A stretch of 34,222 nt of DNA, from contig JAQMWT010000625.1 in the NCBI GenBank assembly GCA_029834535.1, forward strand, positions 1-34,222, in the 5' to 3' direction. Below are positions 1 to 34,222 of this stretch, piece by piece; within the stretch, counting starts at the first letter, position 1; each line of letters opens with the position of its first letter. Below the pieces are notes generated by a model. The model was not told the origin of the DNA. It did not search any database and saw nothing but the letters and a program-made list of their open reading frames with translations. The translations under genes and the position numbers were made by a program. This DNA is from Chrysophaeum taylorii. Its lineage: Eukaryota > Sar > Pelagophyceae > Pelagomonadales > Pelagomonadaceae.

Positions 1-800
1 ATCTCAACAAAACGCAACGACGCAGAACGCAATCTCGATACATCCATTTCGAATGTCGCTCTTCCATTTGCTTGCAGAAAAAAAAAAAGGGGGGGAAAAA
101 GAGCTCCGGCCGTCTTCACACCTAGAGTTAATCGCAAGAAACTATGAGCGCCAAGTGGGGCTAACCATCGTGACAGCGTCTTGCGCTGCCGGATCCAGAC
201 GAAGGTTGTGGTACCCCCATCTAATATCAATGCATGTCCGCCAGCGTCGCATGGCGAGAAAAGCTAAAGCATCGTCTTGTCGAATGTTCGGCCAACTGTC
301 ATTGACCAATTGATCGTTGAGCTGACGTAAGTAAACTGCGGCACGGAACGCGTTTGACGTTCCAATCTCAGCTCCTTTCTTGGGAAACATCAACACAGGA
401 AAGCCCCAAGGTGAGTTGGCCGGGCGAATGACTCCATCCCGACACCACTCACTGATCTGCTTGCGGAGACAATCGAGCTTCGCAGGCGTCAGTCGGTAGG
501 GCGCCGTCTTAATCGGTCGCGGATTCGAGTCTTTGAATCGTAGAGACACAGGAGGCGAGTCCACAGGTCAAATAATCGGGACGAAAAAGGCCCAAGAGTA
601 TTGCACACAGTGACGGAGCATCAGTTTCGCATCGTCATCTAAGTGCGGATTGTCAGGAATTCCAAGCTCCTGAACAACCTTGTCAACTTCTTCCTTCGTA
701 TAAGTCTTTACTTTCATAGCACTGTTATCCTTGACATGCTCGGGAGTTTGCGGCAGCGGTGCACCATCAGCATCGCGTGGCGCATCTTTCCATGGCACAT
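1..800 (-). pseudogene. gypsy-1 reverse transcriptase, N-terminal half (broken)
   Basis: Copies element RNA into DNA. Reading leftward from about 800, the frame carries the usual gypsy RT entry: PPVSLRFKD, then KTAPYRLTP, then ISEWCRDGVIRPANSPWGFPV, then KKG, then a YLRQLN stretch matching the DYRxLN block, and IDIRWGYHNLRL matching the D-L-R-x-G-Y-H-Q-I block with the first catalytic Asp. An in-frame TGA at 568-570 splits the N-terminal arm from the palm, and the frame ends at 142 (WRS, stop). Bases 1-141 are degenerate, with A and G homopolymer runs. The YxDD block, RNase H and integrase would lie beyond the window edge. The domain directly follows the methyltransferase. Confidence 0.85.
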
Positions 801-2045
801 CGAACTTTTCTCGTATTTTAGTCTCACTTCCGGGTGGCTTTTGTTGATCTTCTCGCCTTTGACACGAACGCTCGGCTCGCTCTTAATCTTCGGTTCCCGA
901 TCTCGCTCAGGATCTGTCGGAACGTCCAAATTTGGTTGTCGGGGGGGGGCAGCAGAAGAAGCATGAGACGTCCCCCGCTCGTCTGTTGCAGGCGGAATCA
1001 ACGGTACCTCTGGAGGTTTCCATTTGGTGCGATCTTGGAGATCATCAGTCGACACCCATCTTACGACACGTATGCGCGTGTTTAACAGCGGAACTTGTAC
1101 GTTACGAAGAGTGGTTTCGTCGATTTGCAAATAATAATCAAACGGCCGGTCTGCAGGACTCAACGCGGACGGCAAAGCCTCGCCGCTCAAGTGAAAATCC
1201 TTGGTCACAGAGTTGTGCAAATCGAGTACTAATAAGGCCATCGTGTCTGGTGGCACGACGGACGCCAAGTGTTTCAACGAGATCGTCCTGGAGAAGCCGA
1301 CCCAACCAAAATCCAGGGGCATCGTCAGCAACTCCGAAGTCATTTTCAGATTCAAAGATCTGTAATCGGAACGGTGCGGTCCTACGCGAAGCGGGACACG
1401 CGCAACGGTATAAGCTGAGTCTGTCGCGGCTCGTGATGATCCTATATTGTTCATATGAAGTAAATGCCGTTCATCTGCGTAGCCAAGCGCAGCGGCGAAC
1501 TCTTGTTGCATATTCTTGCAAGTCCTGGTGACTACGCGCAAATGGAGCGGATGGCTGGAAACCAACAACCGCACGCGACAGTTCATCAAACTGGGCGTTT
1601 TGTCGTAAAAATTGACGACGTACACGTAAGGGTGTAAACGCGCAACATAAGAAATAATCGAGGCCTCCTGCTCTATCAACCACATGAAGAAACCAGCCAT
1701 CTTGCATAATTTCATCGTCCAGTGGGTGGCGGTGACTCCCTTCCCAACATCTCTGGAAGTCAAGTTGCACAGAGCGGAGTGTACGCAGGGTGGTGACGCG
1801 ATACACATCGACGACGACCATTCCGCGTAAGGTAAATAAGATTCGATCAACCGTAGGGTTGTAACATAGCGACCACAAAGCGTGTGCTGCACCACAGGAA
1901 TATTCGGAAAGTTCTTGCAGTGAATATTGTTGGCGGTGCCCGACGCATCGAGTGCTAGCACGACTCGGAACGACGCCCCACACATTTCGTTAGCTCGTTG
2001 GAGACCTAAAGTGCTGCCTCCGGCTCCACTGAACAGCATCACCAC
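714..2045 (-). CDS. Cytosine-5 DNA methyltransferase module inside gypsy-1 pol
   Basis: Predicted to methylate cytosine C5 using S-adenosylmethionine. The 443-codon open frame shows C5-MTase motifs in order: motif I LFSGAGGSTLG (res 4-14); motif II/III around ALDASGTANN and NFPNIPVVQHTL (31-56); motif IV SPPC with nucleophile Cys87; a weak motif VI, IEQEAS, keeping Glu125; motif VIII NCRVRLL (155-161); motif IX YRSLNLKMTSELLTMP (228-243); motif X ASVVPPDTMA (261-270). Residues from about 400 on are a frame-shifted tail: at about 800-830 the true frame moves to the RT frame. Upstream, another shift near 2040 joins it to the pol linker. No separate promoter or LTR lies between it and pol, so it was probably made as part of the polyprotein. 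Motif VI is the weakest; all others are clear. Confidence 0.85.
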   Translation of the reverse strand: MVMLFSGAGGSTLGLQRANEMCGASFRVVLALDASGTANNIHCKNFPNIPVVQHTLCGRYVTTLRLIESYLPYAEWSSSMCIASPPCVHSALCNLTSRDVGKGVTATHWTMKLCKMAGFFMWLIEQEASIISYVARLHPYVYVVNFYDKTPSLMNCRVRLLVSSHPLHLRVVTRTCKNMQQEFAAALGYADERHLLHMNNIGSSRAATDSAYTVARVPLRVGPHRSDYRSLNLKMTSELLTMPLDFGWVGFSRTISLKHLASVVPPDTMALLVLDLHNSVTKDFHLSGEALPSALSPADRPFDYYLQIDETTLRNVQVPLLNTRIRVVRWVSTDDLQDRTKWKPPEVPLIPPATDERGTSHASSAAPPRQPNLDVPTDPERDREPKIKSEPSVRVKGEKINKSHPEVRLKYEKSSMCHGKMRHAMLMVHRCRKLPSMSRITVL

Positions 2046-2902
2046 CCTGCGCTAGTGATTCAAACCATGAACCTTTTTCGCAGCGGCGGCGGATCTCTGC
2101 TTCGGTGATCACGCGGCATTTCTTTTCATCTTCTTCCCGACCGTCGAGCGAAAATCGTCGTCTCTTTTGGTCGTTTGAGGGAGGACGCCGGGGGCCACAG
2201 CACGGCTGAGCGTCCTTCTTCGCCGTCTCAAGCAACATCCGGCGGGTAGTTGTCGCAGCGCGTAAGTGACTACGCGGAAACGGTGAAAGAAAGGTTCCCT
2301 TGTCGTACCCTTCTTCCCTTCTTTTGATTGTTTCGTAAGCTCGTTGATCGTATAAACGGTTCAGCTCATCTTCGTACCGAACGATGTCGCCAATGCGAGA
2401 ACTCGCCTTGAGTGACGACTGTCGGCACTTCCCGTGGAAACAGGGACGACGCGAGCAGATGACCTGTCGTGCTCTTCGCAAGAAGAACACATCCCTTCGA
2501 CAACTCCCAACTGCTCGTTTTCAGCAAGCGTAGCGACGAAAACCTGTCCTTTTTCCATAGGCTTCGACAAAATGACCGGTAAATTGCAAGTTCGACCGTG
2601 CTCGATTTGAAGCGTGCGCGCAGCGTAAGCAACTACTTCCCGCACGGCTTCTCCCGGAGCTGGGGGAGTTTGGTCGTAGAATATCCCCGCGTCGTCAAGG
2701 CTACCGCTCGTTCCTGCGGCGGGCTGCGGAGATCTTTATTCGTGCTCAAACGAGCGTAAACTCGAGTCTCGACCAGGTCGAGACTCTGCCGAAAGGCGTC
2801 GTGCTGATGATTGTAAATCGGCACGGTTATCAGGTCTCGATCGTAAACAGATCGAAAGGTCACAATGGGTGCATCGACTCGTTCACCAACCCTTGCTTTC
2901 AA
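2046..2902 (-). pseudogene. gypsy-1 pol segment between protease and methyltransferase
   Basis: Two frames are needed. The segment at 2361-2645 reads VAYAARTLQIEHGRTCNLPV, then FVATLAENEQLGVVEGMC, which resembles the beta-strand-rich stretch that often follows the protease in Ty3/gypsy pol (an LPV motif, then a fixed-length strand and a G-V-x-E-G sequence). The following frame (2490 to about 2045) is basic and acidic low-complexity sequence ending in ITEAEIRRRCEKGSWFESLA, right at the methyltransferase entry. The stretch at 2633-2902 is open but unrecognised. No independent function is proposed; it is linker sequence of the polyprotein. Confidence 0.55.
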
Positions 2903-3471
2903 TCTGCTTGCGCCCGTTTGATGGGGTCGACCGAGCCTGGGTCGATAAAACGATCGATCTTGGACGTAGTCCCGCGACGGCTCCTAAAACTCGATATCGC
3001 GCCCTCTCCAACAGGGGGAACATGTTGATTGGTGTCGGCCCAAGCGACACGGGGCGCGATTTCGTCGGCGATGAGCGACCCGTATCGCGATCCAACGATA
3101 GATCGTCGTCGTATCACCCCACCCCGTCCGCACACAAGCTTGCGCTTAACGGAAGCTCGCCTTCCTCGAAAATCAACGTGTCTTTGCCAACTTTCGGCCA
3201 TTTCACGGCAAAATAAGAAACATCTGCCATTCCATCGACCCGATGGTCGTCGAAATTTCGGTCCGTCACGATTCCTGCAAGATTGACAGCCTAAACGTAA
3301 GAGTACCCGTATCCAAGCAACTGAGGGAACCAAATCATCTTGCGTAGTCTTGCCATCGTCGCGCGTCAACGAAGTGTGAGAAACATTGGGCTCTGGAACT
3401 CGCTCGTCGCCGGGGTTGGGCATCGACAACCGCCGGCTTGGAGCTCTCGTATCATCGTCTTCGGGCGTCAT
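2903..3471 (-). pseudogene. gypsy-1 aspartic protease (frameshifted)
   Basis: Retrotransposon proteases cut the Gag-Pol polyprotein. On the minus strand, codons at 3302-3313 read Asp-Thr-Gly-Thr within SLSCLDTGTLTFR, matching the D-T/S-G-A/T active-site loop of retropepsins. A frame change just after it leads into a strand-rich stretch (VNLAGIVTDRNFDD, then DVSYFAVKWPKVGKDTLIFE) of the expected size for the rest of the fold. It sits downstream of the gag tail and upstream of the post-protease linker, the normal gypsy position. Besides the active-site loop, no flap glycine can be assigned with confidence. At least one frameshift makes it a pseudogene. Confidence 0.6.
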
Positions 3472-4163
3472 CGAACGCAGCGTCCCGGCAAAGCCTCTTT
3501 ATCTGGTGGCTTCCGCTCTTCCTCAATAGACAACTCGGAGGGAATTTCAATCTGGTGAAGGGATGTCCGTTCTTCGACGCTTTATCGGAAGCATAAGACC
3601 TCTCCCACAACTCGTTCATATCGTCTGTCCAGAATTTGTCCGTAGATTCTTTCGTCATCTGCGGATCGTCACCGACGGTGCCGATCGGTTCCGTGTCAAC
3701 TGCGGCTTCGATTCCGTAGCCGAGCGGTCGTTCTGGTTTCTTAGCAGAAGCTCCGAGTTCGTCGTCCACAATCCTGCAGGTTCCACGTCGCTCATCTTCG
3801 TCCCAATCAGAACCTGCTAATCTTCTTCTACATCCATCTTCCTTCGGTCGGTTCAGCTCGATTCCGGCAACGCCGTCACGGCTCTCTCTTCTTCTGGGCG
3901 GGGACAATCCGGCATTGCTCAATCGAGAAGCGACCCTTTCGTCTTCGGACCGTGCACGTAGCTTCTCGTCAGGCGCATTATGCGATTTCTTATCCTTTTC
4001 TTCCATCGGCGTATCCGTGGCTCGATCCGTCGTAACTGAAACCGTTTCGGGGGGGGTCCGCAGGAAAAGATGGCGTCGTCCCCGACGTCAACTCTATCGT
4101 AAGATCGTCGTCTGCATCACTCGCAATGGTCATCGTCTCATCGGTCGAATGATCATCCGTGCT
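3452..4163 (-). pseudogene. gypsy-1 gag C-terminal acidic region, downstream of the retroposon insertion
   Basis: Continues gag after the insertion at 4164-4560. The open part (about 4006-3452) is charged and low-complexity, with WTDDMNELWERSYASDKASK near 3560-3620. The same landmark occurs in gypsy-2 near the right edge of the window (NGEMNELWERSFASENN). A G-run at about 4050 (pairing with a C-run at about 33737 in the other copy) marks a frameshift-prone spot. No catalytic domain is visible. The role is probably a spacer between nucleocapsid and protease. Confidence 0.6.
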
Positions 4164-4573
4164 AACTAACTAACTAACTTCAGACCTCTCCCGAGCATGC
4201 GGGCCAGGCCGGACAGGCAGGAGCCGATCCGGAATCACAGAGGAAAATCAAGCAGTGGGGCAGAGGCGAGGGACGAGGACTCGTTGATGACGGACCGCCA
4301 CTGCGCGCGGTCTTGTGAGTCGTCGTGCAAAAGAGGTGGCGCGTGGCCGCCGCAAACGTCGTTGGCCACGAAACAATCGTCGACCCGACCTGTCCGTAGC
4401 GTTCTGCCCAACCGAGCGAACCCCAGCCCAGCGCGGATTTTCCGGGTGCTAACCGGCCAGCCCGGGAGGCGAGCAGGCACCGTCTCACTCCGGGACGGCC
4501 GGGGCCGCCGCAGGGAGCAAGCGTGTTAGGCGCCGTCCTCCATCGCAACCAACGGTTAGCGATCATCCGTGCT
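4151..4573 (-). mobile_element. Retroposon (SINE or LINE 3' end) with 13-bp target-site duplication
   Basis: A 397-bp insert (4164-4560) is bracketed by perfect 13-bp direct repeats GATCATCCGTGCT at 4151-4163 and 4561-4573. The gypsy-2 copy (about 33615-33650) has the uninterrupted site. On the minus strand the insert starts near GGTTGCGATGGAGGACGG and ends CTCGGGAGAGGTCTGAA followed by a (GTTA)n tail, so it moved by target-primed reverse transcription. A second copy lies at 20351-20717. One frame contains DRAQWRSVINESS, reminiscent of the C-terminal end of some LINE ORF2 proteins, so it may be a 5'-truncated LINE or a SINE sharing a LINE tail. Confidence 0.8.
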
Positions 4574-6285
4574 ATCGCTGCAAAACTCCAGGTCTGGCTC
4601 ACTGCCAGTCCGGTCGCCAAAGGTCATCTCTGGAGGATCCAAAGATAAGCCGATAGCGTCGAGGGCTTCCTCGTCAAAAACAAACGGTGGGTCGTCCGTG
4701 GACAACTCGTCAAGTAACGTAATCTCGGACACTGGTTCACAAGGTGACGCTTCTTCGGCGTCCGAGTCCGAATCGCCTTCCCAGTATCGCGGAGCTTCGA
4801 GTTCATCGCTCGATTCTTCGAGTTCATCGCTCGACGTCTCTTCATAAAACTGTGCCAAAGATCGACGATCGGTCAGCACTTCGTTGGGTGGCTCGTCCGA
4901 CGGCGGACGAGCACGAACTTCGAATGCGGCCGCGGCAGGGGCGTCGGCTGCGTTGTCGGAGCGGGTGTCCGTTGTCGGGTACATCATCACTCCTAATGGT
5001 AACTGTTGACCGCAAGGGGTCGTAAACGCGAACGTAGCAGGCGAATGACCCAAATCTTCTCGGTAACGTCCACCGTCCGAATCGCGATCGCGAGATCTTC
5101 GTCGCCGGCGTCGGCGCGAATGTCTGCTAGGGCTCCGGCATTCTTTCCGTCGGCGCGGACGCGAGCTGCTGCGGCTCTTGTCGCGGCGTCGGGGGTTCCG
5201 GCTGTCTCGACGGCCAGGTCGTGTCGAAAACGATCGGCCGTGTCCATCTTTCAAGTGCTTCACGGAATCCATGACCGTGGTCAGCTGCGTGCCCACGTCG
5301 TTGAGCCTGCTCTGAATATCATGAGCATCGCTCGAACCGAGAGTGGCATTCGAACTGCCATCATCGCGCGACTGGGTATCCTTCTTCTGTCGACTCTCCC
5401 ATCTGCCTCGAGAGAGAGGTTTCTTGTCGTTTTCGATGTACTTACACATCGCAACATAATATTCATCGGGTTCGCGGGTGCAAAAGACGCGGCTCCCATG
5501 TTCATCCTTGTCGTGGGTCGACAGGGAAAATCCACAATTATTGCATGTGAGCTCGTACCACTTTTCGGATTCTCTTCTAAATGTAACGATTCATATTTCT
5601 TCTTCCTATCTTTCGGTCCCGAGGCTTGCGCTCGGCCTCCGCGTCCAGGCGACGGTTTCTGCGGCTTCCCGCCCGACGGGTTCGGCGAATTGCGGCTGCT
5701 CCGCTCCGCCAACGCGGTCGCGTAATCGTTCTCGAGCCGCGTAATCAGTGACAACGTTGACGTAAGCGTATTATACGTAGTCGGGTGCCCGCTGCGCATG
5801 GTTCGCACGCGGGATCGTAACTTGTTGGACTCCAGTCCACGTATCAAGTAAGAAATGATCTCCACATCATTGAGGTCTCGGTTGGCCACAGAGCAGTAGG
5901 CCATCGCCTCGCTCTGGAATTTGGTGCAATAAGTGTGCACATGGCGATCCCCAGGCCGTTTCGGAACAGTCGCCTGGGTCGTACTCTGAAGCTTTCGTAA
6001 TAACTCCTCTGTCGTCATAGGCAAAGGGCAACTCGATCGGAAGTATTTCAAAATCTCGAGGCAGTACTCTCTGTTCAGTCGTCGTAGTCGTCGTACCACT
6101 GAACCGTACTCGTCATCGTCGACATCCCGACGTAAATAAAAAGACGCCGGATGGTCGAGGTCCTTGCACTCGTCCAAGTGTTCTCGGAAAATCGGCGCGA
6201 CGGTGTCGCGTAAGCTTACCGGCAGTAGATGCCGCAGCTTTTCCATGCTGAAATTGTCGTCGGCTATCGTGCTCATCACGGCATC
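4574..6285 (-). pseudogene. gypsy-1 gag: capsid, zinc knuckle, SR-rich tract
   Basis: The Gag region starts at DAVMSTIADD, where H1 cuts it. Capsid-like helices include YCLEILKYFRSSCPLPMTTE, HVHTYCTKFQSEAMAYC and IISYLIRGLE, typical of Ty3-type capsid. A one-base loss in an A-run near 5570 shifts the frame. The next frame begins WYELTCNNCGFSL and holds a C-x2-C...H...C cluster (codons at 5545-5479), a probable nucleocapsid knuckle. After it come an SR-protein-like arginine/serine tract (about 5100-5230) and an acidic D/E/S-rich tail. The same order occurs at 32300-33600 in gypsy-2. Gag packages element RNA; the SR tract is unusual and could bind RNA or splicing factors (inference). Confidence 0.8.
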
Positions 6286-6350
6286 CTAACTACTAATCGA
6301 CAGATGTTTGTCTGTCTGTTTGTTTGTCTTTAAATGTCGACTGCTAAGAG

Positions 6351-6364
6351 TAGGGTCGGATAAG
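6351..6364 (+). repeat. Left terminal inverted repeat of the DNA transposon
   Basis: TAGGGTCGGATAAG, a perfect 14-bp inverted match to 10997-11010. It is preceded by the Helitron-type flank CTGCTAAGAG. Confidence 0.9.
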
Positions 6365-6728
6365 GAACTCGGGGGTCCCGCGCCGGGGCCGAAAATCCCC
6401 AAGGATTGGCGGGCTTTTTTGTCCGTCGCCAAGTTGACCCAAAATGGTGCCGATTTTATCTTGGAACGAAGTCCGTAGCTGCCGATTTGGCGAATCTACT
6501 TGGGAGTGAGGTATTTTGGCGCCTCGGTGGAGGCGGGGGCCTAGGTGGCTCTACTCTGCACGACGCCATCGGCTCCAAATACAACAACCGGCGCATCGGG
6601 AATGTCCGTAGGCCCAATGAGGGTCGTGTGGGCGTTTAGACGGCGCCTTTTGTTCGCTGGGGCCAGTTCTAGTGTCCTCGTCTTTCCGGGCGTCCTCGGG
6701 AGACCGGCGTCGGGGCCCGCGAACGCAG
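6365..6728. other. 3' non-coding part of the DNA transposon
   Basis: 364 bases lie between the left inverted repeat and the transposase stop codon. The stretch is GC-rich with short inverted GC tracts (for example GGGTCCCGCGCCGGGGCC near 6373). No convincing ORF is present. It probably holds the 3' UTR and subterminal transposase-binding sites, but I cannot define any. Confidence 0.4.
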
Positions 6729-9700: not shown

Positions 9701-10871
9701 CCGCGAGCTTTATCTCCATTTGCTTCGCTTCCTGGTTGAGGGCGGCGTAATTGTTCTTGAGTTGTCGCATGGCCCGAGGGTCCGATTTCTTCAGTCGGTT
9801 CCTCTCCCGAAACTCGGCCGCCGCCGCAGCCTGTCTCGCCGCCTCGTTCGACTGGGCCTTGGTCGCGTTGAGCTCGTCGATGGCTCGCTGCAGCCTCGCG
9901 GCATCGCGGTCGCGCTGCTTCTCATTGGAGGCCTGGTGGCGTTCGATGCGGACCTGGAGCCGTGCCTCCCGACGTGCGGCATCCCGGACCTCGTCCTCGT
10001 ACTTCCACTTGGCCTCGAGACGCGCCGCGTCTGCCTTGGCGGCCGCCATTTCCGCGGCGAAGGCGTCGGCGTGGGCTTCTTTCGTCTCGCGTTCGGCGGT
10101 GACAGAGCGAGAGTGCTGAGCCGTCTTGGCCGCCGTGAGCTTGTCGACCGTGCTCCGGAGTTTCGACACCTCCTTCTCGAGCTCCGAGATCCGCACATTC
10201 GAGTCCGACGACGACGACAGTGTGGAGATAACCGATGACCCACTCGATCCAAGCGTCGGACGCGCTGGCCGTCCGGGTGGTAGTCGCCGAATCGGGGGGG
10301 TGTCGTTCTCCTTGTCGGGCTTGGCCTTGACGTGGGAGAACGGGACGCGGATCTCTCCCTGCTGAATCGTTTTCACGTCGTATGACTCGACCCGACACAC
10401 AGTGTTGTTGTAGATTAGGCCCAGGACAACGCCGTTGCCGCCCTGGATGTTGTGCCCCGCCGAGAAGTCGTGCTCGATGAGGACCTCGTCCCCGCTGCGG
10501 ATGGTTGTCTTGAGAGTCCTAGTTAGCGACGCGGAGATCCGGGCGAGAACGGCCTTCGCGCCCTTCGTCGTGTGTAGCTTGCTCGGGGTGAAGTCGTCCC
10601 GGCACATTTTCGAGCACACGTAGAACTTGTCGGGCAGCTCGCCCTCGATATTCAGGAGTCGCTCCAGGTCGAGCGGCTGGCCCCTGGCCGTCTCGTCGGC
10701 GTCGAGCCTCGCTACGCAGCACACGCACTCTCCCCTCAAGAGGTTTTTTCGCCGTTGACGTTTGGCAGCGGGTTTTTTCGACACTTTCGTCAACTCAGCC
10801 GGGACCGAAGGGTCCACAGGGGTTACAGAAGGACCCGGGGCCGACTCTTTGCTCGTTTCGGCCGATTCCAT
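6729..10871 (-). CDS. Large DDE-type transposase-like protein with zinc finger, SH3-like, coiled-coil and Tudor-like parts
   Basis: Removing a 37-bp intron (8860-8896) and adding one base in the G6 run at 8058-8063 gives a continuous frame of about 1368 aa from the ATG at 10871. Numbering from an upstream in-frame ATG at 10934: basic NLS-like KKPAAKRQRRK (53-63); cysteines C70, C73, C107, C111 as a zinc finger; SH3-like stretch GDEVLIEHDF...GVVLGLIYNN (148-200); coiled coil about 250-440. The catalytic region has VDAATDASPLDG (Asp533), IVTDNAS (Asp627), then C-x2-H in HGNCQRHLG, and late NSNEVEGEFGVLKYYN with a candidate acidic residue, an order seen in RNase H-fold transposases with an inserted helical domain. 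The C-terminus has a Tudor/Agenet-like VGSRVEVLWEL...GCYWMPGTIEAV, then an acidic tail. The DDE assignment is inference from motif order; the superfamily is unknown. Confidence 0.65.
8860..8896 (-). other. Probable 37-bp spliceosomal intron in the transposase gene
   Basis: On the minus strand GTACGT opens and GAGCAG closes a 37-base segment. Its removal joins CQRHLG to NTWLDGGAAEEAKML without a break and restores the downstream frame. Left unspliced, the frame runs into unrelated basic sequence. Length, GT-AG ends and the clean join support an intron. An insertion or deletion of the same size cannot be excluded without RNA. Confidence 0.65.
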
Positions 10872-10996
10872 GGGCGGAACGCCGATTTTGTGATTTTGCA
10901 GGCTATGTTTGAAACATAGCCTGAGACAATCCACTTTTGAATGAGGGTTTCTCGTTTGGTGTTCGAAATGTAGGCTAGGGCCTAGTTTTGAGCTTT

Positions 10997-11010
10997 CTTA
11001 TCCGACCCTA
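10997..11010 (-). repeat. Right terminal inverted repeat of the DNA transposon
   Basis: CTTATCCGACCCTA, the exact reverse complement of 6351-6364. Helitron-type sequence (ATGAAGGATGTGGGTGGG) resumes directly after it. Confidence 0.9.
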
Positions 11011-12211: not shown

Positions 12212-12991
12212 TGCATCTAAATCGAACTGGTCCTGGTCGCGACCATCAAGAACCAATTCAAACGCTTCAGTCTTCAATCCGGAGGTTGATCGCCGATCCT
12301 TGCTGCGATCATGTTTAGCTAGCGCGCTGGCGAACCGGTCAGTGAAGTCCATGAGGAACTTCTGGTTGTCGACCTTCCCGTCGTCATGCGTCTCCTCCTT
12401 AGTCTCGTAATCATCGTCGTCGTAGCGCGGCTTCCTAACTTTCGCGCGTGTTCGTGTAGGCGGCGGTTCATCCTCGGGTCGGGATCCCGGGCTGCTCGCT
12501 CGCCTCAAGCGACTCGGCGTACGTAATTCGTCCCTCTCTTGGGTCAATAGCTCTACTCGATCTTGGAGTTCTTCTGATCGGGCTTTTGCTTTCCGTAGTT
12601 GCTCTCGCAGTTCGTATAACTCCTCTCGGCGTAGTCGTTCCTTTCGCTCATTTTCTTCTGCTATCTGCTGTAGAAGTCTCTCTTGCGCGCGTTCGTTTTC
12701 TCGGCGTAACTCGCGTAGATGAGCTTCGTAAAACTCGTTCATGCTCGTTGCATCTGTGCTTCGTGCACGTGTTGACTGGGCTGTCGGTTGCCTCTCCTGC
12801 GGCGCTTCCAACGGCTCATCGCCGTCGTAGTCCAGCTCTTCTTCATCGTCATCATCCTCGGTAGCATAGTCCGTATCCGCATTATCATCAACTTCATCTT
12901 CATCATCATCGTTCCGCTCGTTCGTCCCCTCGGGACGACAAGAAGGTTCGGGTTCTCGTATCTGCTCGTCAGCAGCATCATCGTCCTCCAT
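12212..12991 (-). pseudogene. gypsy-1 gag N-terminal domain (middle piece)
   Basis: Starts at MEDDDAADEQIREPEP (12991) and matches gypsy-2 from about 31103. Order: an acidic D/E-rich leader, a coiled coil (MNEFYEAHLRELRRENERAQ and the following arginine/glutamate helix, through EELQDRVELLTQERDEL), a basic linker ending TRTRAKVRKPRYDDDDYE, then FLMDFTDRFASALAKHDRSK. It ends at QFDLDA, where H1 cuts in; the next gag residues (DAVMSTIADD) resume at 6285. The coiled coil probably drives Gag assembly (inference). Frame is intact across this piece. Confidence 0.85.
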
Positions 12992-13632
12992 ATCGGCTCC
13001 GGCTCGCTCTAATCGGCCAAAGTCAGAACGGGTCCAAAATGGTTGAGTCGTCGTCGTTCTCGTGTTCCTCCGACTCTGGGACCTCTACTCGTCCACGTCA
13101 CGCGTAATATCGTCGCCGCGTGCGTCTTCCACCGACTGATCTATCAGTTCCGGTGGGCGGCAGAATTCGTCTCTGCCCGGCAATCAATGCCTCAGTGAGC
13201 TGCGATCTCAATCCGCTCGCCTGCGGCAGCGGTACCCGGGTTGCGCGTCGGCTCGAACCGATCCGCGCGACGTCACCTCCGACGACTAACGTATCCGGCC
13301 GGGGAACTTTCCCACGGCGATGGTCCCTCTTGAGCTCTTCGTCGGCGCGCTTGATCAGGGCGCGCACGGTTTGTCCGGACCGTGTAGAGAATGCAAGATG
13401 CACTCGTCCGCTGCGACTGATATGTTCGCTCGACTCTCGTATTCCTCAGCCACCTGTGGCGTTACAGGAAATTACGCCTACCTGGCTCACCTTCAAATCT
13501 AGGCTCGCCGCTCGCGTCCGTGCCCTTTATGGAGTCACTGGACGAGGAAGGCCGCTCTCTCGCCACACAATCACAAATAACTCCCGTGCCTGGTCCTCAC
13601 AACTTGAGGATCGGCTGTTGCTTTATGATTAA
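12992..13632 (-). pseudogene. gypsy-1 leader and ORF upstream of gag
   Basis: Matches gypsy-2 at about 30467-31102. An open stretch (13403-13098) reads MHLAFSTRSGQTVRALIKRA, then EELKRDHRRGKVPRPD, VPLPQASGLRSQLTEAL and AGQRRILPPTG. An extra base then shifts it out of the frame that ends VDE-stop in the other copy. The codon at the gag ATG of gypsy-2 (31010) is AGG here, so gag in this copy would start at the later ATG (12991). No known domain is recognised; it may be an N-terminal Gag extension or a separate small protein. Confidence 0.6.
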
Positions 13633-13975
13633 GACAAGTGCAGGCCAGTAAGTTCACCTAGTCCCAATCTCTAACCCCAGTAAGTTCACCTGGTCCCAGT
13701 AAGTCCACCTGGTCAGTAAGTTCACCTAGTCCAAATCTCTAACCTCAGTAAGTTCGGCGTAAACCCTTTCGTGCTCACACCCACTCCTTCGAGCTCGTCG
13801 CTCTCGCCTCCGCCAATCTAAGCTGCTTTGATCCGCACACCCCGCTAGCCTTTGAGTTTACTCTAAAACCCCCAGTAAGTTCACCTGGTCCCAGTAAGTT
13901 CACCTGGTCACTATATTCACCTAGTCCCAATCTCAAACCCCAGTAAGTTCACCTGGTCCCAGTAAGTTCACCTAC
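13633..13975 (-). repeat. Minisatellite at the 3' end of H2
   Basis: Tandem CCAGTAAGTTCACCTGGTCC units alternate with CTAGTCCCAATCTCTAACCC spacers. It is the inverted counterpart of 11850-12211, including the unique stretch with CGCCTCCGCCAATCTAAG in the middle. Confidence 0.8.
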
Positions 13976-14620
13976 AGTGCGCGTGTAGACGCCGGGAGGG
14001 GGCTTATAGGTATTGCGTAGCACGTGTGGGGTAGGGTGGAGTCGTCGACTCAGAAGAGTATATCCTCGGGGTTGCCGATCGACAGAGAGCCACGTAGAGC
14101 TCGACGTGACAGAAGACGGGCTTGTGCAAGAGGACACCGACCTCGCGGGCCGTCTGGCCCTGGCTCTTGTTGATCGTTTGGCGTCGGCGGGCCTTAAGGG
14201 ATACAGGTAGGAGGAGCCACGGTGACACGACACGATCGATCACGTATCTGGTACCGTTGCAGTGGCCGTGCGACGGGTCGAGTTTGCGAAGACTTTAAGC
14301 TCGCGATCAAAGTCAGCATGCCGTTGGTTGTCAGGGAGTCGAAAACTCGACTGTAAAGAGCGAGGCGTCGTCTTCCGACCCAACCTAGTCGGCCGAAAAG
14401 AACTCCGACGCCTCGTCTCCGGGAAAAAAAGGCCGCGGTCATGTGTGCGTTGTCAGCATCGACAACATCGTTTCGACGGGGCGTGAGAATGGCGCGCTGA
14501 AAGAGCCGCCGCGGGTCGTGGAAATAGTCTGCGAGGTCGCCGTAGACGGCTTGGAGGATCAATGGCTGGCTCGCGGGCCTACCTGATCCGCACCCTAAAT
14601 CGGGGGACAAACAGACAAAC
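13976..14620 (-). pseudogene. Helitron helicase C-terminal remnant in H2
   Basis: Frames on the minus strand give AVYGDLADYFHDPRRLFQ, RAILTPRRNDVVDADN and, in another frame, RRQTINKSQGQTAREVGVLL followed by VFCHVELYVALCRS. The latter is the conserved final block of Pif1/Helitron helicases (TINKAQGQ...VGVYL...VFSHGQLYVALSR). It is better preserved than in H1. Frameshifts separate the blocks and the ATPase Walker motifs are missing, so this is a relic. Confidence 0.8.
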
Positions 14621-14656
14621 AGACAAACAGACAAACATCTGTCGATTAGTAGTAAG

Positions 14657-14813
14657 GATATTATCGAATCACATAAATCAGGGTGATACATGTCAAGGAA
14701 AAGGGAGATGATGTCATAGAGAAAACTGACATCATCAGAACGGAGTAGGGTGCCCCCGATAAGGGGGGCCCTAAATGAGGGGTAAGCCTTAGGAAGCGGG
14801 AGTTTCCGCCACA
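14657..14813 (-). repeat. Start of the gypsy-1 5' LTR
   Basis: Begins TGTGGCGGAAACTCCCGC (minus strand, from 14813) and matches gypsy-2 from 30304 through the H2 insertion point. The shared start, with unrelated sequence outside it (14814 up and 30303 down), marks the outer element edge. The LTR's 3' boundary cannot be set because neither 3' LTR is in the window. Confidence 0.7.
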
Positions 14814-17390: not shown

Positions 17391-17463
17391 GTCCGGTCTC
17401 GGTAGAGTACAGGATTCCCAGTTGAGTTCCGCTCTCTGACGTTCCTGAACCAACAAGAACAAG

Positions 17464-20342: not shown

Positions 20343-20725
20343 GGATGAAAACTAACTAACTAACTAACTTCAGACCTCTCCCGAGCATGGGAGCCAGGCC
20401 GGACCGACAGGTGCCAGTCCGGAATCACGGGCCTGTAGACGAGGAGCGCCGAAAGGTCGGTCGGCGGAGAGTGACCATCAAGCTTGTCGCCATGCGACGA
20501 GGAGACCGCGATGTGACTGACAACCAACTCGTCGATAACCTTCCGTCTTCGCCCCCCGGCCATACCCCGTCCCACTGCGAACGTTCCGGCTGCCAACCGG
20601 CCCGCCCGGGAGGCGAATAGGTGCCAACCTACGCCGGGAGGGCGGATGCCCTCGCAAGGCTCAGAATTCATGAGGCACCGTCCTCCATCGCAACCGCAGT
20701 CGGCGATCAGGGTAAGGGGATGAAA
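20343..20725 (-). mobile_element. Second copy of the (GTTA)n-tailed retroposon, in copia-B
   Basis: A 367-bp insert (20351-20717) flanked by 8-bp direct repeats GGATGAAA at 20343-20350 and 20718-20725. It shares the 5' end (GGTTGCGATGGAGGACGG), the middle GCCTCCCGGGC...GGCCGGTT block, and the 3' end CTCGGGAGAGGTCTGAAGTT with tail (GTTA)n with the copy at 4164-4560. The bodies have diverged a lot. Its position splits protease from the methyltransferase-like region. Confidence 0.75.
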
Positions 20726-20789
20726 TCGCAAACATTATGCAAAAGTCGCAAGGACCCGCACCCAGTCCCATTTTCTCGATTCTGCCAAA

Positions 20790-21775
20790 TTGCAAGCCCA
20801 TTCTGCTTTTCTGACGGAGTCTTTCAAACTGCCGAGCCCCTATTTGAAATATGCGCTCACTGGCACCGCGGAACTCTCTGTGTTTACACAGCCCCATCCG
20901 CTGCACACTGCCATTATCGCAGGTGGACTCCACCAAGAAGGATTTACTTCATTTCGCAAGCGCTTCGACAAACGCATTACTTTCGTTGTCACCTGTAAAA
21001 CTAACCCCACCCTGCACGCCCACGCGCAACAACTGTTCCCATATGCTCAGCACTACAGGGATCTCAGGCAACTTACTGCCGCCCGTCAAACTGGCAAACT
21101 ACGACTGCCTCGACTTGACATGGCTGTCTTCACCCTGCCCTGTCAACACCGCAGCGTAATTAAGGACCATGATGGCAATGCAACTCCAGCGACTGCCGAT
21201 CTTTTTGTTAAAGAACAAGTCCGCGTTGTTCGTTGCACGCTCCCGACATACACCATTGTCGGGGACGTTCCACCAAACCCGAAAACTCATCATGAGTACA
21301 CGCAACTCGCCAAATGCTATCAAAGTGTGGGCTACTTCCGACACTTTGGTGTCTACAACGCCTCAGCCTTCGGCGACGTCATAAGCAAGCACCGCTATCT
21401 CGCTGTCTTCGCTCGGCACCCGCTAGATGGCTACTCTCGAGAAAACCGCCTCCTCCTGGTTGACATCCCCACCGAGTATGGTTCCCTTCTTGGACCCTAG
21501 TCACACCATCCCAGAAGATCTCTGGATACCCGCCCCCGCCCTTCGCGGCACTGTGACTCGCTCGACCTTGGATTACTATCAACACAAGGCTATCTTCTCG
21601 TACACACCCGACAATGCAACTCGACTGTCGATTTCCGAGAATGCACGCATCTGCCAAATGCTCGCACGTCTCAAGCAGCCCTTCATGGATCTTGGACTGG
21701 GCGCAGACGGCACCCCCTATGCCTCCACGACTTCCACCCCGTACCTCCTGGTATTTACACACTACTGCACAACCA
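20790..21775 (+). pseudogene. Cytosine-5 DNA methyltransferase-like domain inside copia-B
   Basis: Predicted former C5-cytosine MTase. In the frame from 20790: motif I-like HTAIIAGGLHQEGFTSFRK (res 39-57); motif II/III FVVTCKTNP and QLFPYAQHYRDLRQL (65-95, Asp91); motif IV FTLPCQHRS with candidate nucleophile Cys118 (21141-21143); a motif VI position IVGDVPPN where the usual E-N-V is G-D-V; motif VIII NASAFGDVISKHRYLAVF (190-207). After a frame change at about 21490, motif IX appears as TRLSISENARICQ (21619-21657). A motif X-like PLCLHDFHPVPPGIY follows near 21720 in another frame. Loss of the motif VI glutamate and of the motif II acidic residue suggests an inactive copy. It lies between protease and integrase, an unusual place for an extra domain. 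Confidence 0.7.
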
Positions 21776-21776
21776 C

Positions 21777-24900: not shown

Positions 24901-25830
24901 CTGCTGATGACATTGTCTATGAGCCAGAGAAAACTGTCCAACTCAAGGGCCTCAGCGAAGAAGACAAGCTCAATCACATTGCTTCAATTCGCAAGGAGAT
25001 TGAGGGATTATGCTCTAATGGTGTCTTCAAGCTGGAGCAATTGCCGCCGGATCGTTCGTCAATATCGACGAAACTCGTGCTAGAAATCAAGTATTTGCCG
25101 ACGGACTCCGGACCGCTATAAGGCTCGCCTAGTTGCCCGAGGTTTATTGGCACGCGTCGGCATCGATTTCCATGCTACCTCTTCACCGACCGCGATTCTC
25201 GCCACCAACCGGTTATTGCTCGCCATCGCCGTGAAGCACAAGCCCCCCGTCGCGCACGCGGACAGCACGCAGGCCTTTATCCAATCGGCGCTCGATCGCC
25301 CGGTATGGATCGATTTGTGTGTCTCGCAGAACCTCATTCAGCAGATACAGAAAAACCACCCGGAGTCCAAACTAGCTCTGCGACTCGTCAATGCACTCTA
25401 CGGTCTCAAACAGTCAGCTTTGTTGTGGAACATCAAGCTCGACTCGTTCCTTCGAAAACACGAGTTCGGACGATCGCAAGTCGACACTTGTCTCTACATA
25501 AGTTGGGATCAATCTATCAGGGTTCTCCTATCCGTTTCTGTCGACGATCTTTTGATCACTGGTACCAACTCCGCCAAAATTACCTCTCTCCGCACTGCTC
25601 TGGAGAAAGAATATGGCGAAGGCACCTGGCACGACAATATTCGATCTGTTCTTGGTATCGACGTGCATTACAATGTATCCGCTGGTCATCTCACTATGAA
25701 TGTCGCAGCAAAGATCAATAAAATGATCGCCGAACATAAGCTCGACATTCGCAGTTCGGACGTACCACACTCTGAATTGCTCAATCAGAAGCCTTCAGCT
25801 AAGCCTCTCTCCGATTTGGCTCCTACCCTC
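24901..25830 (+). pseudogene. copia-B reverse transcriptase
   Basis: IRKEIEGLCSNGVFKLEQLP starts the domain; a one-base break near 25090 leads to RYKARLVARGLLARVGIDF, then TSSPTAIL, VAHADSTQAFIQSALDRPVW (first catalytic Asp), LVNALYGLKQSALLW and VDTCLYI. The catalytic box reads LLSVSVDDLLITG (Asp codons 25543-25548); copia elements normally have Y-V-D-D, so the tyrosine is serine here. Next comes WHDNIRSVLGIDVHYN, matching the thumb-region FLGI block. The domain is otherwise complete. Confidence 0.88.
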
Positions 25831-26694
25831 GACATTCTTCGCAAACATTATCCTCATTATTGTGGCACTAGTATCTACCTCTCCGTTGCATGTCGCCATG
25901 ATATTACAACTCTGTGCAGCAAATGCTGCAAAGGCATGCACAATCCTGAGCAGACTCATCTTCTGCACTTGTATGTTCTACTTCGCTACTTAAAGCGGAC
26001 TCCGAATGACTCTTTAGATTATTCACCCGACAGCCCTTCCATTACGCCCTTTATTCAACACTTGATCAGCAACTACCCCGAATTGCATAATCTTAGTTCG
26101 CCCATTATTTGTTTCACGGATGGCAGTTTCGCTGACCATTCTGACCCCCGCTTACGATCTCACTCTGGTGCTAGTATTAAGGTTTTTGGCAATCTCGTAT
26201 TTTGGTCTAGTAAACGACAGACACTCACTGCCAAGAGCACCATGGAAGCCGAACTCATCGCCGCTAGCGCAGCTGCTGATGAATGTCAATGGTTTCATAA
26301 GATCTTTTCTTCCCATCCCTATTTATTTTCGTGTGATCAAGCTCACGCTATCCCCCTGCTTGTCGATAATGCTAGCGCATTACAAGTAGCTAACCATCCT
26401 AAAGTCAGTGCTCCCTCTCGTCATGTTAACTTACGAGAATTTCGCATCCGTGACTACCAAGCCAATTCTGTGATTCGTCCCCTCTGGTGTCCTCCTCCGT
26501 ACCAGATCGCCGATCATTATTCGAAACTTCATTCTCGCACATTGTTTTACAAGTTCAAGAACGCCAATGGTGTTAATTCTACCTCTTCTTCACCTCCATC
26601 TCGCCAAGTCCATCTTTCCACAACTCTTCCATCATACGACTCCGTTCAAAACACTTTTCACATTCTTGTTGACGGGAAGTCTCTTTCTGCTTAG
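25831..26694 (+). pseudogene. copia-B RNase H
   Basis: In frame with RT. The copia connection region contains ISTICYLSV-type sequence (TSIYLSVACRHDITTLCSKC) and LLRYLKRTPNDSLDY. RNase H residues follow: CFTDGSFADH (Asp), WSSKRQTLTAKSTMEAELIA (Glu), LLVDNASALQVAN (Asp) and QIADHYSKLHSRTLF (Asp). All four acidic positions of the Ty1/copia enzyme are present. The stop at 26694 lies three bases before the 3' LTR-like sequence. Confidence 0.88.
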
Positions 26695-26696
26695 TT

Positions 26697-30303: not shown

Positions 30304-30514
30304 TGTGGCGGCAACTCCCGCGTCCTAAGGCTTACCCCTCATTTAGGACCTCCCCCTTATCAGGGGCACCCTACTCCGTTCTGATGATGTCCGTTTTCTC
30401 TGCGACATCATCTTCCTTTTCCGTGACATGTGTCACCCTGATTTCTGTGATTCGACAATATCTTAATCATAAAGCAACAGCCGATCCTCAAGTTGTGAGG
30501 ACCAGGCACGGAAG
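30304..30514 (+). repeat. gypsy-2 5' LTR start and leader
   Basis: Matches 14813-14657 plus 13632 downward in gypsy-1. It contains ATATCTTAATCATAAAG, the unbroken H2 target. LTR length cannot be set from this window. Confidence 0.65.
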
Positions 30515-31009
30515 TTGTATGTGGTTGTGTGGCGAGAGAACGGCCTTCCTCGTCCAATGACTCCACCAAGGGCACGGACGCGAGCGGCGAGCCTAGATTC
30601 GAAGGTGCGCCAGGTAGGCATAATTTCTCCTAACGCGACAGGTGGTGGAGGAATACGAGATTCGAGCGACCATATCGGTTGCAGCGGACGAGTGCATCTT
30701 GCATTCTCTACACGGTCCGGACTAGCCGTGCGCGCCCTGATCAAGCGCGCCGACGAAGAGCTCAAGAGGGACCATCGCCGTGGGTAAGTTCCCCGGCCGG
30801 ATACGTTAGTCGTCGGAGGTGACGACGCGCGGATCGGTTCGAGCCGACGCGCAACCCGGGTACCGCTGCCGCAGGCGAGCGGAGTGAGATCGCAACTCAC
30901 TGATGCATTGATTGCCGGGCAGAGACGAATTCTGCCGCCCACCGGACTGATATATCAGTCGGTGGAAGACGCACGCGACGACGATATTACGCGGGTCGTG
31001 GACGAATAG
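30515..31009 (+). pseudogene. gypsy-2 ORF upstream of gag
   Basis: Reads MTPPRARTRAASLDSKVRQV, then VHLAFSTRSGLAVRALIKRA and EELKRDHRRG, where an AAA-to-TAA change (AAA in gypsy-1) stops it. The frame then goes on through VPRPDTLVVGGDDARIGSSR and AGQRRILPPTGLIYQSVEDA to TRVVDE and a TAG directly before the gag ATG. The TAG is present in both copies, so it is an ancestral stop between this ORF and gag in the same frame. No known domain; basic, arginine-rich. Confidence 0.55.
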
Positions 31010-32670
31010 ATGTCCCAGAGTCGAAGGAACACGAGAACGACGACGACTCAACCATTTTGGACCCGATCTGACTTTGGCCGATTAGAGCGAGCCGGAGCCG
31101 ACATGGAGGAAGATGATGCTGCTGACGAGCAGATACGAGAACCCGAACCTTCGAGTCGTCCCGAGGGGACGAACGAGCGGAACGATGATGATGACGATGA
31201 AGTTGAAAATAACGATGATAAGGATTATGCTACCGAGGGTAATGACGATGAAGAAGAGCTGGACTACAACCGCGACGAGCCGGTGGAAGCGCCGCCGGAG
31301 AGTCGACCGACAGCAACGTCAACAAGTGCACGAACCCCAGATGCAACGAATATGAACGAGTTCTACGAAGCTTATATACGCGCGTTACGCCGAGAAAACG
31401 AACGCTCGCAAGAGAGACTTCTACAGCAGATCGCGGAAGAAAGCGATCCAAAGAAGCGACTACGCCGGAAGGAGGCAGAAGAGTTACGAGAGCAAGTGCG
31501 GAAAGCGAACTCTCGAGCAGAAGAACTCCAAGCTCGATCCGAGGAACTTCAAGCTCGAGTAGGTTTATTGACCCGAGAAAGGGACGAGTTACGTACGCCG
31601 AGTCGATCGAGGCGAGCGAGCAGCCCGGGATCCCGACCCGAGGAAGAGCCGCCGCCTACACGAACACGCGCGAAAGTCAGGAAGCCGCGCTATGATGACG
31701 ATGATTACGAAGATAAGGAGGAGGCGCATGACGACGGGAAGATCGACAACCAGAAGTTCCTCATGGACTTCACTGAAAGGCTCGCCAGCGCGCTAGCTAA
31801 ACACGATCGCAGCAAGGATCGGCGATCAACCTCCAGATTAAAGACTCAAACGTTTAAATTGGTTCTTGATGGTCGCGACCAGGACCAGTTCGATTTAGAT
31901 GCAGACGCAGTGATGAGTACGTTAGCCGAAGACCATTTTAGCATGGAGAAGCTGCGGTACCTACTGCCAGTAAGCTTACGCGACACAGTTGCCCCGATTT
32001 TCCGGGGACACTTGAAGAAATACAAGGACGCGTGCAAGGATCTTGACCATCCGGCGTCTTTTTATTTACGTCGGGATATCGACGATGATGAGTACGGTTC
32101 AGTGGTTCGACGACTACGACGACTGAACAGGGGGTACTGCCTCAAGATTTTGAGATACTTCCGACCGAGTTGCCCTTTGCCTATGACGACAGAGGGATTA
32201 TTACGAAAGCTTCAGGGTACGACCCAGGCGACCGTTCCGAAACGACCTGGGGAACGCCATGTGCACACTTATTGCACCTAATTCCAGAGCGAGGCGATGG
32301 CCTACTGCTCTGTGGCCAATCGAGACCTCAATGACGTTGAGATCATTTCTTATTTGATACGTGGACTGGAGTCCAACGAGCTACGATCCCGCGTGCGAAC
32401 CATGCGCAGCGGGCACCGACTACGTATAATACGTTTACGTCGACGTTGTCACTGATTACGCAGCTCGAGAACGACTACGCGACCGCGTTGGCGGAGCGGA
32501 GCAGCCGCAATTCGCCGAGCCCGTCGAGCGGGAAGCCGCAGAAACCGCCGCCTGGGCGCGGAGGCCGAGCGCTAGCTTCAGGGCCGAAAGATAAGAAGAC
32601 GAAATATGAGTCGTTACGTTTGGAAGAGAATCCGAAAAAATGGTACGAGCTCACATGTAAGGATTTTTGA
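31010..32670 (+). pseudogene. gypsy-2 gag, N-terminal and capsid part
   Basis: ATG at 31010 (MSQSRRNTRTTTTQPFWTRS), then the acidic leader, coiled coil with a local duplication (RAEELQARSEELQARVGLL), basic linker, and capsid DAVMSTLAEDHFSMEKLRYL onward. A TAA at about 32279 replaces the Lys codon of HTYCTKFQS in gypsy-1, and a one-base loss near 32418 shifts the frame. The frame at 32446-32670 reaches WYELTCKDF-stop, so the second knuckle cysteine (C-x2-C in gypsy-1) is lost here. Confidence 0.82.
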
Positions 32671-33417
32671 TTTTTCCTCTAGACCCACGAGAAGGATGAA
32701 CATGGGAGCCGCGTCATTTGCACCCGCGAACCCGGTGACTACTATGTTGCGATGTGTAAGTACATCGAAAACGACAAGAAACCTCTCTCTCGAGGACGAT
32801 GGGAGAGTCGACAGAAGAAATATACCCAGTCGCGCGATGATGGCAGTGCAAATGCCACTCTCGGTTCGAGCGCCGCTCATGAGATTCAGAGCAGACTCAA
32901 CGACATGGGCACCCAGCTGACCACGGTCATGGATTCCGTGAAGCACTATACAGATGGACGCGGTCGATCGTCTTCGACACGACCGGGCCGTCGAGATAGC
33001 CGGAGCCCCCGACGCCACGACAAGAGCCGTAGCAGCTCGCGTCCGCGCCGGCGGAAAGAAAGCCGGAGCCCTAGCAGACATTCGCGCCGACGTCGGCGAC
33101 GAAGATCTCGCGATCGCAATTCCGACGATGGACGTTACCGAGAAGACTCGGGTCATTCGTCTGTTACGTTCGCGTTTACGACCCCTTGCGCTCGACAGTT
33201 ACCATTCGGAGTGATGATGTACCCGAACACGGACACCCGCTCCGACAACGCAGTCGACGCTTATGCCGCGGCCGCATTCGAAGATCGTGCTCGCCCGCCG
33301 CCGGACGAGCCACCCAACGAAGTGCTGACCGATCGTCGGTCTTTGGCACGGATTTACGAGGAGATGTCGGGCGATGAACCCGGCGAGTCGAGCGATGAAC
33401 TCGAAGCTCCACGATAA
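32671..33417 (+). pseudogene. gypsy-2 gag, nucleocapsid and SR-rich part
   Basis: MCKYIENDKKPLSRGRWESR (32752), then SDAHDIQSRLNDVG-like helix (AAHEIQSRLNDMGTQLTTVM), then the SR-rich tract with RSSSRPRRRKESRSPSRHSR and RRRRRRSRDRNSDDGRYRED, then the acidic region ending DELEAPR-stop at 33417, where gypsy-1 reads YWEGD. The SR tract is kept in both copies at almost the same length. Confidence 0.75.
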
Positions 33418-34222
33418 TGGGAAGGCGATTCGGACTCGGAAGACGACGAAGCCGCACCGTGTGAACCAGTGTCCTCGATTACGTTACTTGACGAGTCGTC
33501 CAAGGACGACCCACCGTTTGTTTTTGACGAGGAAGCCCTCGACGCTATCGGCTTATCTTTGGATCCCCCCGAGATGACCTTTGGCGGCCGGACTGGCAGT
33601 GAGCCTGACCTGGATTTCTGAAGCGATAGCACGGATGGTCATTCGACAGATGAGACGATGACCATTGCGAGTGATGCAGACGACGATCTTACGATAGAGT
33701 TGACGTCGGGGACGGCGCCATCTTTTCCTGTGGACCCCCCCCCGAAACGGCTTCGGTTACGACGGATCGAGCCACGGATACGCCGCCGGAAGAAAAGGAT
33801 ACGAAATCGCATAATGCGTCGGACGAGAAGCTACGTGCACAGTCCGAAGCCGAAAGGGACGCTTCTCAAATTGAGCAATGCCTGGATTTGTCACCGCAGA
33901 AGAAGAGAGCAGTGACGGCGTTGCCGGAGTCGAGCCGAACCCGACCGAAGAAGATGGAGGTAAGAAGAAGATTAGCAGCGTTCTCGATTGGGACGAAGAT
34001 GAGCCGACGTGGAACCTGCAGGATTGGTGGACGAGAACTCGGAGCTTCTTGCTAGAGAAGCCACCAGAACGACCGCTCAGCGACGGAATCGAAGCCGCAG
34101 CCGACATGGAACCGATCGCCGATGACGGTGATGATCAACCGATGACGAATGAATCTACGGATGGATTATGGAACGGCGAAATGAATGAGTTATGGGAGAG
34201 GTCCTTTGCTTCCGAGAACAAC
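33418..34222 (+). pseudogene. gypsy-2 gag C-terminal acidic region (runs off the window)
   Basis: Continues the acidic tail (frame with EGDSDSEDDEAAPCEPVSS, DEEALDAIGLSLDPPEMTFG). It includes the intact target site of the gypsy-1 retroposon near 33630-33650, a C-run at about 33737 and the LWERS landmark at the end. Several frame changes. The protease would start just outside the window. Confidence 0.6.

Follow-up and report, generated by a model that had tools for sequence, protein, structure and literature searches.

DNA methyltransferases (DNMTs) carried by retrotransposons have been published for dinoflagellates and for a charophyte, as an earlier note on the DNA analysed here had stated, and in one case the enzyme is lodged in a gypsy Pol (PMC5890265). 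DNMT3 in Copia elements, which have long terminal repeats (LTRs), and in DIRS elements is also mentioned in PMC12344493; none of three methylation terms was found in PMC5963040. The stretch considered here (the window) comprises 34,222 nucleotides of contig JAQMWT010000625.1 from the pelagophyte Chrysophaeum taylorii, and it holds a damaged Ty3/gypsy element with a cytosine-5 methyltransferase (C5-MTase, or simply MTase) domain between the protease and the reverse transcriptase (RT). With SymbioDIRS, SymbioLINE and KnitGypsy-Dnmt3 already known, the gypsy family of the window is a diverged further case; no published description of it was found in a search outside which lay most subscription papers and all preprints.

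The known elements resemble the window family in different respects. KnitGypsy-Dnmt3 of Klebsormidium nitens likewise has its DNMT in the Pol frame of an LTR-gypsy element, and shares with the window family its many intronless copies, retained key residues and purifying selection; it differs in belonging to the Dnmt3 family and in having repeats arranged as in DIRS elements (PMC5890265). The window family, by contrast, is far more diverged, reads EQ at motif VI, is only partly found by Pfam and has ordinary LTRs in the copy examined, the two having been compared by description. SymbioDIRS-Dnmt3 of Symbiodinium is similar in having a Pol frame with RT, many copies and no significant CG depletion, whereas it is a DIRS element with a tyrosine recombinase and a Dnmt3-family enzyme that methylated CG de novo in yeast (PMC5890265). 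SymbioLINE-Dnmt, also of Symbiodinium, is like the window family an orphan, element-specific DNMT lineage, but it belongs to a non-LTR element, with the DNMT in an upstream open reading frame (ORF) and CG-depleted copies (PMC5890265). Among the retrotransposon DNMTs tested in yeast there, the earlier statement that such enzymes can methylate CG de novo holds for SymbioDIRS-Dnmt3 only; KnitGypsy-Dnmt3 and SymbioLINE were without activity in the same yeast test, a result that the authors call inconclusive (PMC5890265). Methylation of the element's own cDNA was proposed by those authors for the DIRS case (PMC5890265).

In the window the motifs of the domain lie in a single minus-strand frame of 445 aa at 714-2051 (714-2045 in the earlier note), which starts RRVVMLFSGAGGSTLGL and continues with ASPPC, IEQE, RVRLL and VVPPDT. 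Of the motifs listed earlier, IV (ASPPC), VIII (RxR), IX and X are legible by eye, and a glycine-rich motif I is present; so is motif VI (IEQ), omitted from that list. In this copy the frame does not run on into its neighbours, the protease being spread over several frames and the RT lying in another frame than the MTase. Scored with the Pfam profile PF00145 (DNA_methylase, cut-off 22 bits), the whole ORF reaches 20.3 bits, a 313-aa part 21.8 and the trimmed 286-aa domain 22.2, so that the match to which the earlier note had looked is obtained with the trimmed domain only.

The remainder of the genome (70.8 Mb in 697 contigs searched) places this copy in a large family. For the window MTase at least 127 matches were obtained (out of 1015 candidates, 127 were scored); leaving aside the match of the window to itself, identities are 76-95%, and 101 of the 127 listed are without internal stop. 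A more distant family, B, gave at least 132 match rows from 122 scored candidates. All told, subfamilies A1, A2 and B comprise at least 282 separate MTase loci of gypsy type, a minority of which were opened singly; the figure was obtained by merging the A and B lists with 63 PF00145 matches assigned by profile range.

One sister copy on contig C5 (L039) shows the arrangement undamaged: a single frame of 3057 aa, open at the edge of the stretch fetched, runs in the order Gag, protease, MTase, RT, RNase H and integrase. Pfam recognises RVT_1 (1997-2161), RNaseH (2231-2368), H2C2 (2552-2610) and rve (2628-2721) in it, with DNA_methylase at 18.4 bits (motif I part, below the cut-off) and no gag or protease match. 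RT ahead of integrase is the Ty3/gypsy order. The LTRs of this copy are about 340 nt each, 98.2% identical and bounded by TGTGG...CCACA; no target-site duplication was seen in this one copy. The family B copy that was read (L048) has the order protease, MTase, RT as in A. With RNase H as the starting point, a listed MTase lies 1.5-2.8 kb upstream at 82 of the 150 best places. Among the other 68, five were opened and four carry MTase sequence: L054, where it is frame-broken, L055, where it is truncated, L056, with arginine for the motif-IV cysteine, and L057. In the fifth, L053 (C335:25700-28640), the MTase is missing by a clean 1107-nt absence, the rest being about 99% identical to L054 (C311); both are family B copies.

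That an MTase gene, from the host or from a foreign source, landed by chance in a single dead gypsy copy would suit the window taken alone, where the element is damaged and the MTase frame stands by itself. This is refuted by the sister copies: the MTase loci of gypsy type, at least 282 in number, the long frames shared with the other domains and the homologous polyproteins in other data sets leave it next to no probability. With many sister copies carrying the domain, the chance insertion in one copy that the earlier note had named as refuting does not apply.

At E 0.1 all 14 A2 members tested are assigned to PF00145 and to nothing else, the best at 1.2e-10; in a wider set 7 of 9 sequences match. 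A family B copy matches the profile at 7-48 and again at 260-321, 35.1 bits together, and this second match gives statistical support to the C-terminal part as well. Aligned by hhalign with four canonical C5-MTases, the family scores 98.3% probability (E 1.7e-13; 0.05% for an RT control), with motifs IV and VI aligned and IX-X not; one of the four, P0001, had been found by the family's own profile, which favours the match. Twenty columns are invariant over nine aligned sequences, chosen ones among which the window and the P0003 protein described below share 19% identity. They include G9, G16, D35, C89, E127-Q128, R159/R161 and P267. The codons for C89 (motif IV), E127 and Q128 (motif VI) stand at 1787, 1673 and 1670 on the minus strand, while R159/R161 belong to motif VIII and P267 to motif X, both invariant in nine of nine. 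The earlier placement of a DNMT-family domain in gypsy pol between protease and RT is borne out. Judged from its sequence, the domain is a strongly diverged member of the C5-MTase family, and catalysis is predicted.

In a comparison of one A1 with one A2 copy, nonsynonymous and synonymous differences per site (pN and pS) are 0.108 and 0.695 in the MTase, with synonymous sites near saturation and dN/dS about 0.06; pN in other parts of the same pair is 0.157 in the protease, 0.246 in the spacer before the MTase, 0.158 in the linker behind it (71 aa) and 0.038 in the RT. Identity between A1 and B falls from 60% in the N-terminal part of the RT through 42% in the MTase and 36% in the protease to 27% in the spacer and 24% in the linker. 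For recent A1 copies pN/pS rises from 0.13 (RT) and 0.17 (MTase) to 0.29 (spacer), 0.36 (protease) and 0.46 (linker), figures that favour intact MTases, since they come from 28 of 29 loci fetched for their best-matching MTase and only stop-free segments were used, and that rest on 10 pairs for the protease and 7 for the RT. On these comparisons the MTase is held by purifying selection in the gypsy family.

Relatives outside the genome suggest that the association is old. Eight proteins were found with the MTase-RT part of L039 as query. In P0002 (JGI set), P0003 (MMETSP transcriptome) and P0004 (ENA set) the MTase profile scores 173, 86 and 146 bits over most of its length; the domain lies upstream of RVT_1, farther from the RT than in family A, and is 19-30% identical to that of the window. 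A protease-like DTGA motif precedes the MTase in P0004 only, and P0002 starts shortly before its MTase. At E 0.05 none of the three full-length proteins matches Pfam DNA_methylase. In a tree of the RT, the MTase being too diverged for one, A1, A2, B and P0002-P0004 are united in a clade (100/100 support) that a long stem separates from the five other gypsies found; two of these five are long-branched, and the main branch order within the clade is not settled by the tree. Because the RTs of all six form this single clade, one old MTase capture in its ancestor would be the simplest history.

P0007 (3348 aa, source 'ena') also has a DNA_methylase domain in a Ty3/gypsy Pol, but it differs from the window family in that the domain is canonical (PF00145 104 bits) and stands after RNase H and before the integrase, and its RT falls outside the MTase-gypsy clade. 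Domain, position and RT together suggest that P0007 is apparently a separate DNMT capture. Another of the proteins, P0009, is a polyprotein of gypsy type with a PHD finger (PF00628) among its precomputed Pfam domains, another chromatin-related add-on. Viral contigs were also searched with the gypsy (A2) and copia (A3) MTases; the 56 and 96 pattern matches obtained yielded none that was confirmed, so that a viral origin finds no backing in those contigs.

The nearest solved sequences are those of DNMT2/TRDMT1, which match weakly and differ in being a free-standing tRNA methylase. In a profile search of the PDB the best is 4h0n (E 0.0058, over two short stretches), with 9hgm and 1g55 at E 0.03; a narrower A1 alignment gives a DNMT2 match at E 0.09. 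The annotated DNA methylase 3g7u stands at E 0.035 and is the sole PDB match of alignment A2 (E 0.62). Against the host's own DNMT2 the family scores 5.7 bits, in motif I only. A single-sequence protein search with the 445-aa ORF found no match at E 1e-3 among 8000 candidates, and profile A2 found in the same database a single match, the bacterial-type MTase P0001. In a fold search C5-MTases come out on top (31 of the 50 rows shown) and some RNA methyltransferases tie with them, the mean pLDDT of the model being 51.

Descent from Dnmt3, through the same ancient capture that gave rise to KnitGypsy-Dnmt3 of Klebsormidium, is improbable in our estimation. Most members do read S-P-x-C-x-x-x-S/A-x-x-N, which may be akin to the surroundings of motif IV in Dnmt3. 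That said, DNMT2 and an enzyme from bacteria come nearest among solved structures, and DNMT3 is not among the PDB matches at E up to 10. In both systems the DNMT sits in the Pol of a gypsy element with LTRs, but the KnitGypsy enzymes group with Dnmt3 and have DIRS-like repeats (PMC5890265), in place of the ordinary LTRs of the copy examined here.

In LTR elements generally, the polyprotein is packed into particles and cut by the protease. With the order protease, MTase, RT, RNase H and integrase, the MTase would thus find itself in the particle beside RT and integrase during reverse transcription, and it may methylate cytosines of the element's new cDNA before integration, the likeliest of its possible uses. 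An insertion methylated in this way could resemble host DNA, escape sensing as foreign, or stay re-expressible; through the DNMT5 of the host, such a mark might in principle persist. That the MTase is a lasting part of the Gag-Pol of one Ty3/gypsy clade, and methylates the element's own cDNA before integration, is a reading to which we give even weight for and against. We lean slightly further towards a broader statement, in which this is an old, single-capture gypsy lineage with a deep, unnamed branch of C5-MTase (S/T-P-x-C with EQ) that would be under selection for a regular job in replication, the DNMT of a copia element (see below) being a second solution in one host.

Several observations weigh against methylation of the cDNA. 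Some concern the enzyme: motif VI reads EQ instead of EN in the nine aligned sequences, motif I is eroded in the alignment of P0003, the PF00145 alignment of the window copy is limited to the SAM-binding part (profile 3-52), and the motif-IV cysteine is replaced in 2 of 38 A stretches. Overall 35 of the 38 stretches from A and 8 of the 9 from B keep this cysteine (each set includes one copy twice), the exceptions being L027 (glycine), L056 (arginine) and L055 and L053 (region absent). Others concern the expected footprint: in the family A stretches measured the observed/expected ratio of CpG (o/e) is 1.19-1.42, without depletion, and C-to-T differences per site between A copies (29 aligned copies, 656 ordered pairs) are 0.0282 at CG, 0.0272 at CHG and 0.0268 at CHH.

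The first group could mean that catalysis has been lost and that the domain is now a nucleic-acid- or cofactor-binding module for packaging or target choice. We think this unlikely, more so than descent from Dnmt3: the motif IV cysteine, the motif VI glutamate and the RxR of motif VIII are among the mere 20 columns invariant over the nine sequences, and the retention of catalytic residues at the 19% identity of window and P0003 is what catalysis predicts.

The second group bears on where the mark would lie. Lack of CpG depletion and of a CG transition excess argues against long-lived CG methylation of the A copies and lends no support to CG methylation of the element; transient marks, another sequence context or RNA would be left. 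In the CpG sample family A is represented by six loci and family B by one, the window by three gypsy stretches, its copia element and the long insert, and the host by two genes. CpG o/e is lower, and TG/CA higher, in the B locus L048 (1.00) and in the window copia (17449-26700; 1.08), one stretch each and too few for a conclusion, than in family A and in the two host genes (1.26 and 1.46), which make up the whole host comparison. For C-to-T differences at four-fold sites within the MTase, the CG values (0.035 on one strand, 0.032 on the other) exceed those for CA (0.028, 0.014) and lie below that for CT (0.098) and, on the second strand, below that for CC (0.189, 2044 sites); single sites weigh heavily in these values, from which no methylation context is read. 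Over the whole stretch, C-to-T differences are commonest before T and not at CpG (L010-L038, MTase region).

The main rival holds that the MTase acts on RNA, either the genomic RNA or the tRNA primer in the particle, and so alters stability, priming or sensing. The best PDB sequence matches are indeed to DNMT2, a methylase of tRNA C38, enzymes that methylate RNA come out side by side with C5-MTases in the fold search, the A copies bear no clear CpG footprint, and a similar idea has been published for SymbioLINE (PMC5890265). However, the match to DNMT2 is a weak one and lies for the most part in motif I, common to C5-MTases, the DNA methylase 3g7u matches nearly as well, and the domain adjoins RT and integrase in Pol, which handle DNA. 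Action on RNA is possible, though we consider it somewhat improbable.

At least 124 DNMT-profile matches were found in the genome, and of those opened only a DNMT5-like gene and a DNMT2 gene lie outside retroelement sequence. The former scores 482 bits to 7r76 (deposited as Rad8), which we take to be Cryptococcus Dnmt5; DNMT5 maintains CG methylation in other organisms. The DNMT2 gene (L001) is an ordinary copy, 138 bits to 1g55. A frame beside it resembles light-harvesting proteins of red-lineage plastids, VCPI-6 best and then the fucoxanthin and peridinin types, which makes an alga with such plastids the probable host.

The gypsy element of the window was mapped by tblastn with pieces of an intact sister copy (Table 1). 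Its RT reaches the contig end, RVT_1 being recognised in the sister L039, and the whole is damaged by an insert of ~5.9 kb (about 6283-12209) in gag and one of ~1 kb (13634-14654) in the LTR. The ends of the two inserts are common in sequence, and the frames of 734, 466 and 309 aa in the longer one have no Pfam match at E 0.1; it is probably a DNA transposon, and the shorter its deletion derivative. The protease, without Pfam match, is presumably a retropepsin, as we name it from motif and position. The usual retropepsin motif is D-T/S-G-A; both gypsy families, A and B, have D-G-M-A in its place, and frames of copia type have D-G-G-A; P0004 has DTGA.

Table 1. Mapped features of the window, with strand and the basis of each assignment
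Feature	Position	Strand	Basis
Ty3/gypsy RT, 91% identity to sister copy over 227 aa, frameshifted relative to MTase	26..810	-	tblastn
Stop-to-stop open frame, 445 aa, MTase and linker to RT	714..2051	-	ORF reading, position mapping
Linker MTase-RT, in the frame of the MTase, 93% identity to intact sister copy	813..1193	-	tblastn
C5-cytosine-methyltransferase-like (MTase) domain of gypsy polyprotein, 286 aa	1194..2051	-	PF00145, hhalign, invariant columns
Spacer protease-MTase, several broken frames	2062..2830	-	tblastn
Retropepsin-like protease, frame-broken; catalytic region VDGMADVSY near 3236	2834..3294	-	tblastn, motif scan
Gag/NC C-terminal part, in pieces 3293-4142 and 4568-5047	3293..5047	-	tblastn
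Gag N-terminal part, set apart by the insert at about 6283-12209	12389..13045	-	tblastn; repeat ends
5' LTR, split into 13450-13633 and 14654-14813 by ~1-kb insert	13450..14813	-	blastn with LTR of the contig C5 copy
Second, different C5-MTase domain, in Ty1/copia element; motif IV LPCQ, motif VI GDV	20724..21500	+	PF00145 22.9 bits
Ty1/copia RT (RVT_2, 120 bits), same element as second MTase	25084..26694	+	
Second copy of the same gypsy family: LTR 30304-30645 and gag; contig stops before MTase	30304..34219	+	

The window holds a second element with a DNMT, of the Ty1/copia type and spanning about 17.4-26.7 kb, in which the DNA_methylase domain lies upstream of RVT_2. Its motif VI glutamate is lost, while other copia-type copies reach up to 46 bits with PF00145. 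Among the matches listed, 56 genome places match the same middle part of the profile as the copia MTase. All six that were read (L003-L008) have a P-C-Q motif IV, with motif VI E-N-V in five and E-N-A in L007, and in L006 and L007 the frame also holds, farther upstream, a D-G-G-A protease-like motif. Since they resemble the window copy, these six presumably lie in copia elements. By hhalign the copia and gypsy MTases match with a probability of 0.04%, a weak test in that the copia alignment has two rows; the same alignment scores only 3.8% against canonical DNMTs, despite Pfam scores of up to 46 bits.

DNA methylation is best known as a weapon of the host against transposons, and here a clade of elements carries an MTase of its own. 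The domain is hard to see as a passenger, having been kept through saturated synonymous divergence, and with its catalytic residues at 19-30% identity. That the MTases of P0002-P0004 are without a Pfam DNA_methylase match suggests that surveys built on Pfam models miss diverged retrotransposon DNMTs, which may be commoner than the published cases. For the question of their role, the genome of C. taylorii offers natural material in hundreds of copies, three gypsy subfamilies, a copia DNMT family and a near-identical sibling that is without the MTase.

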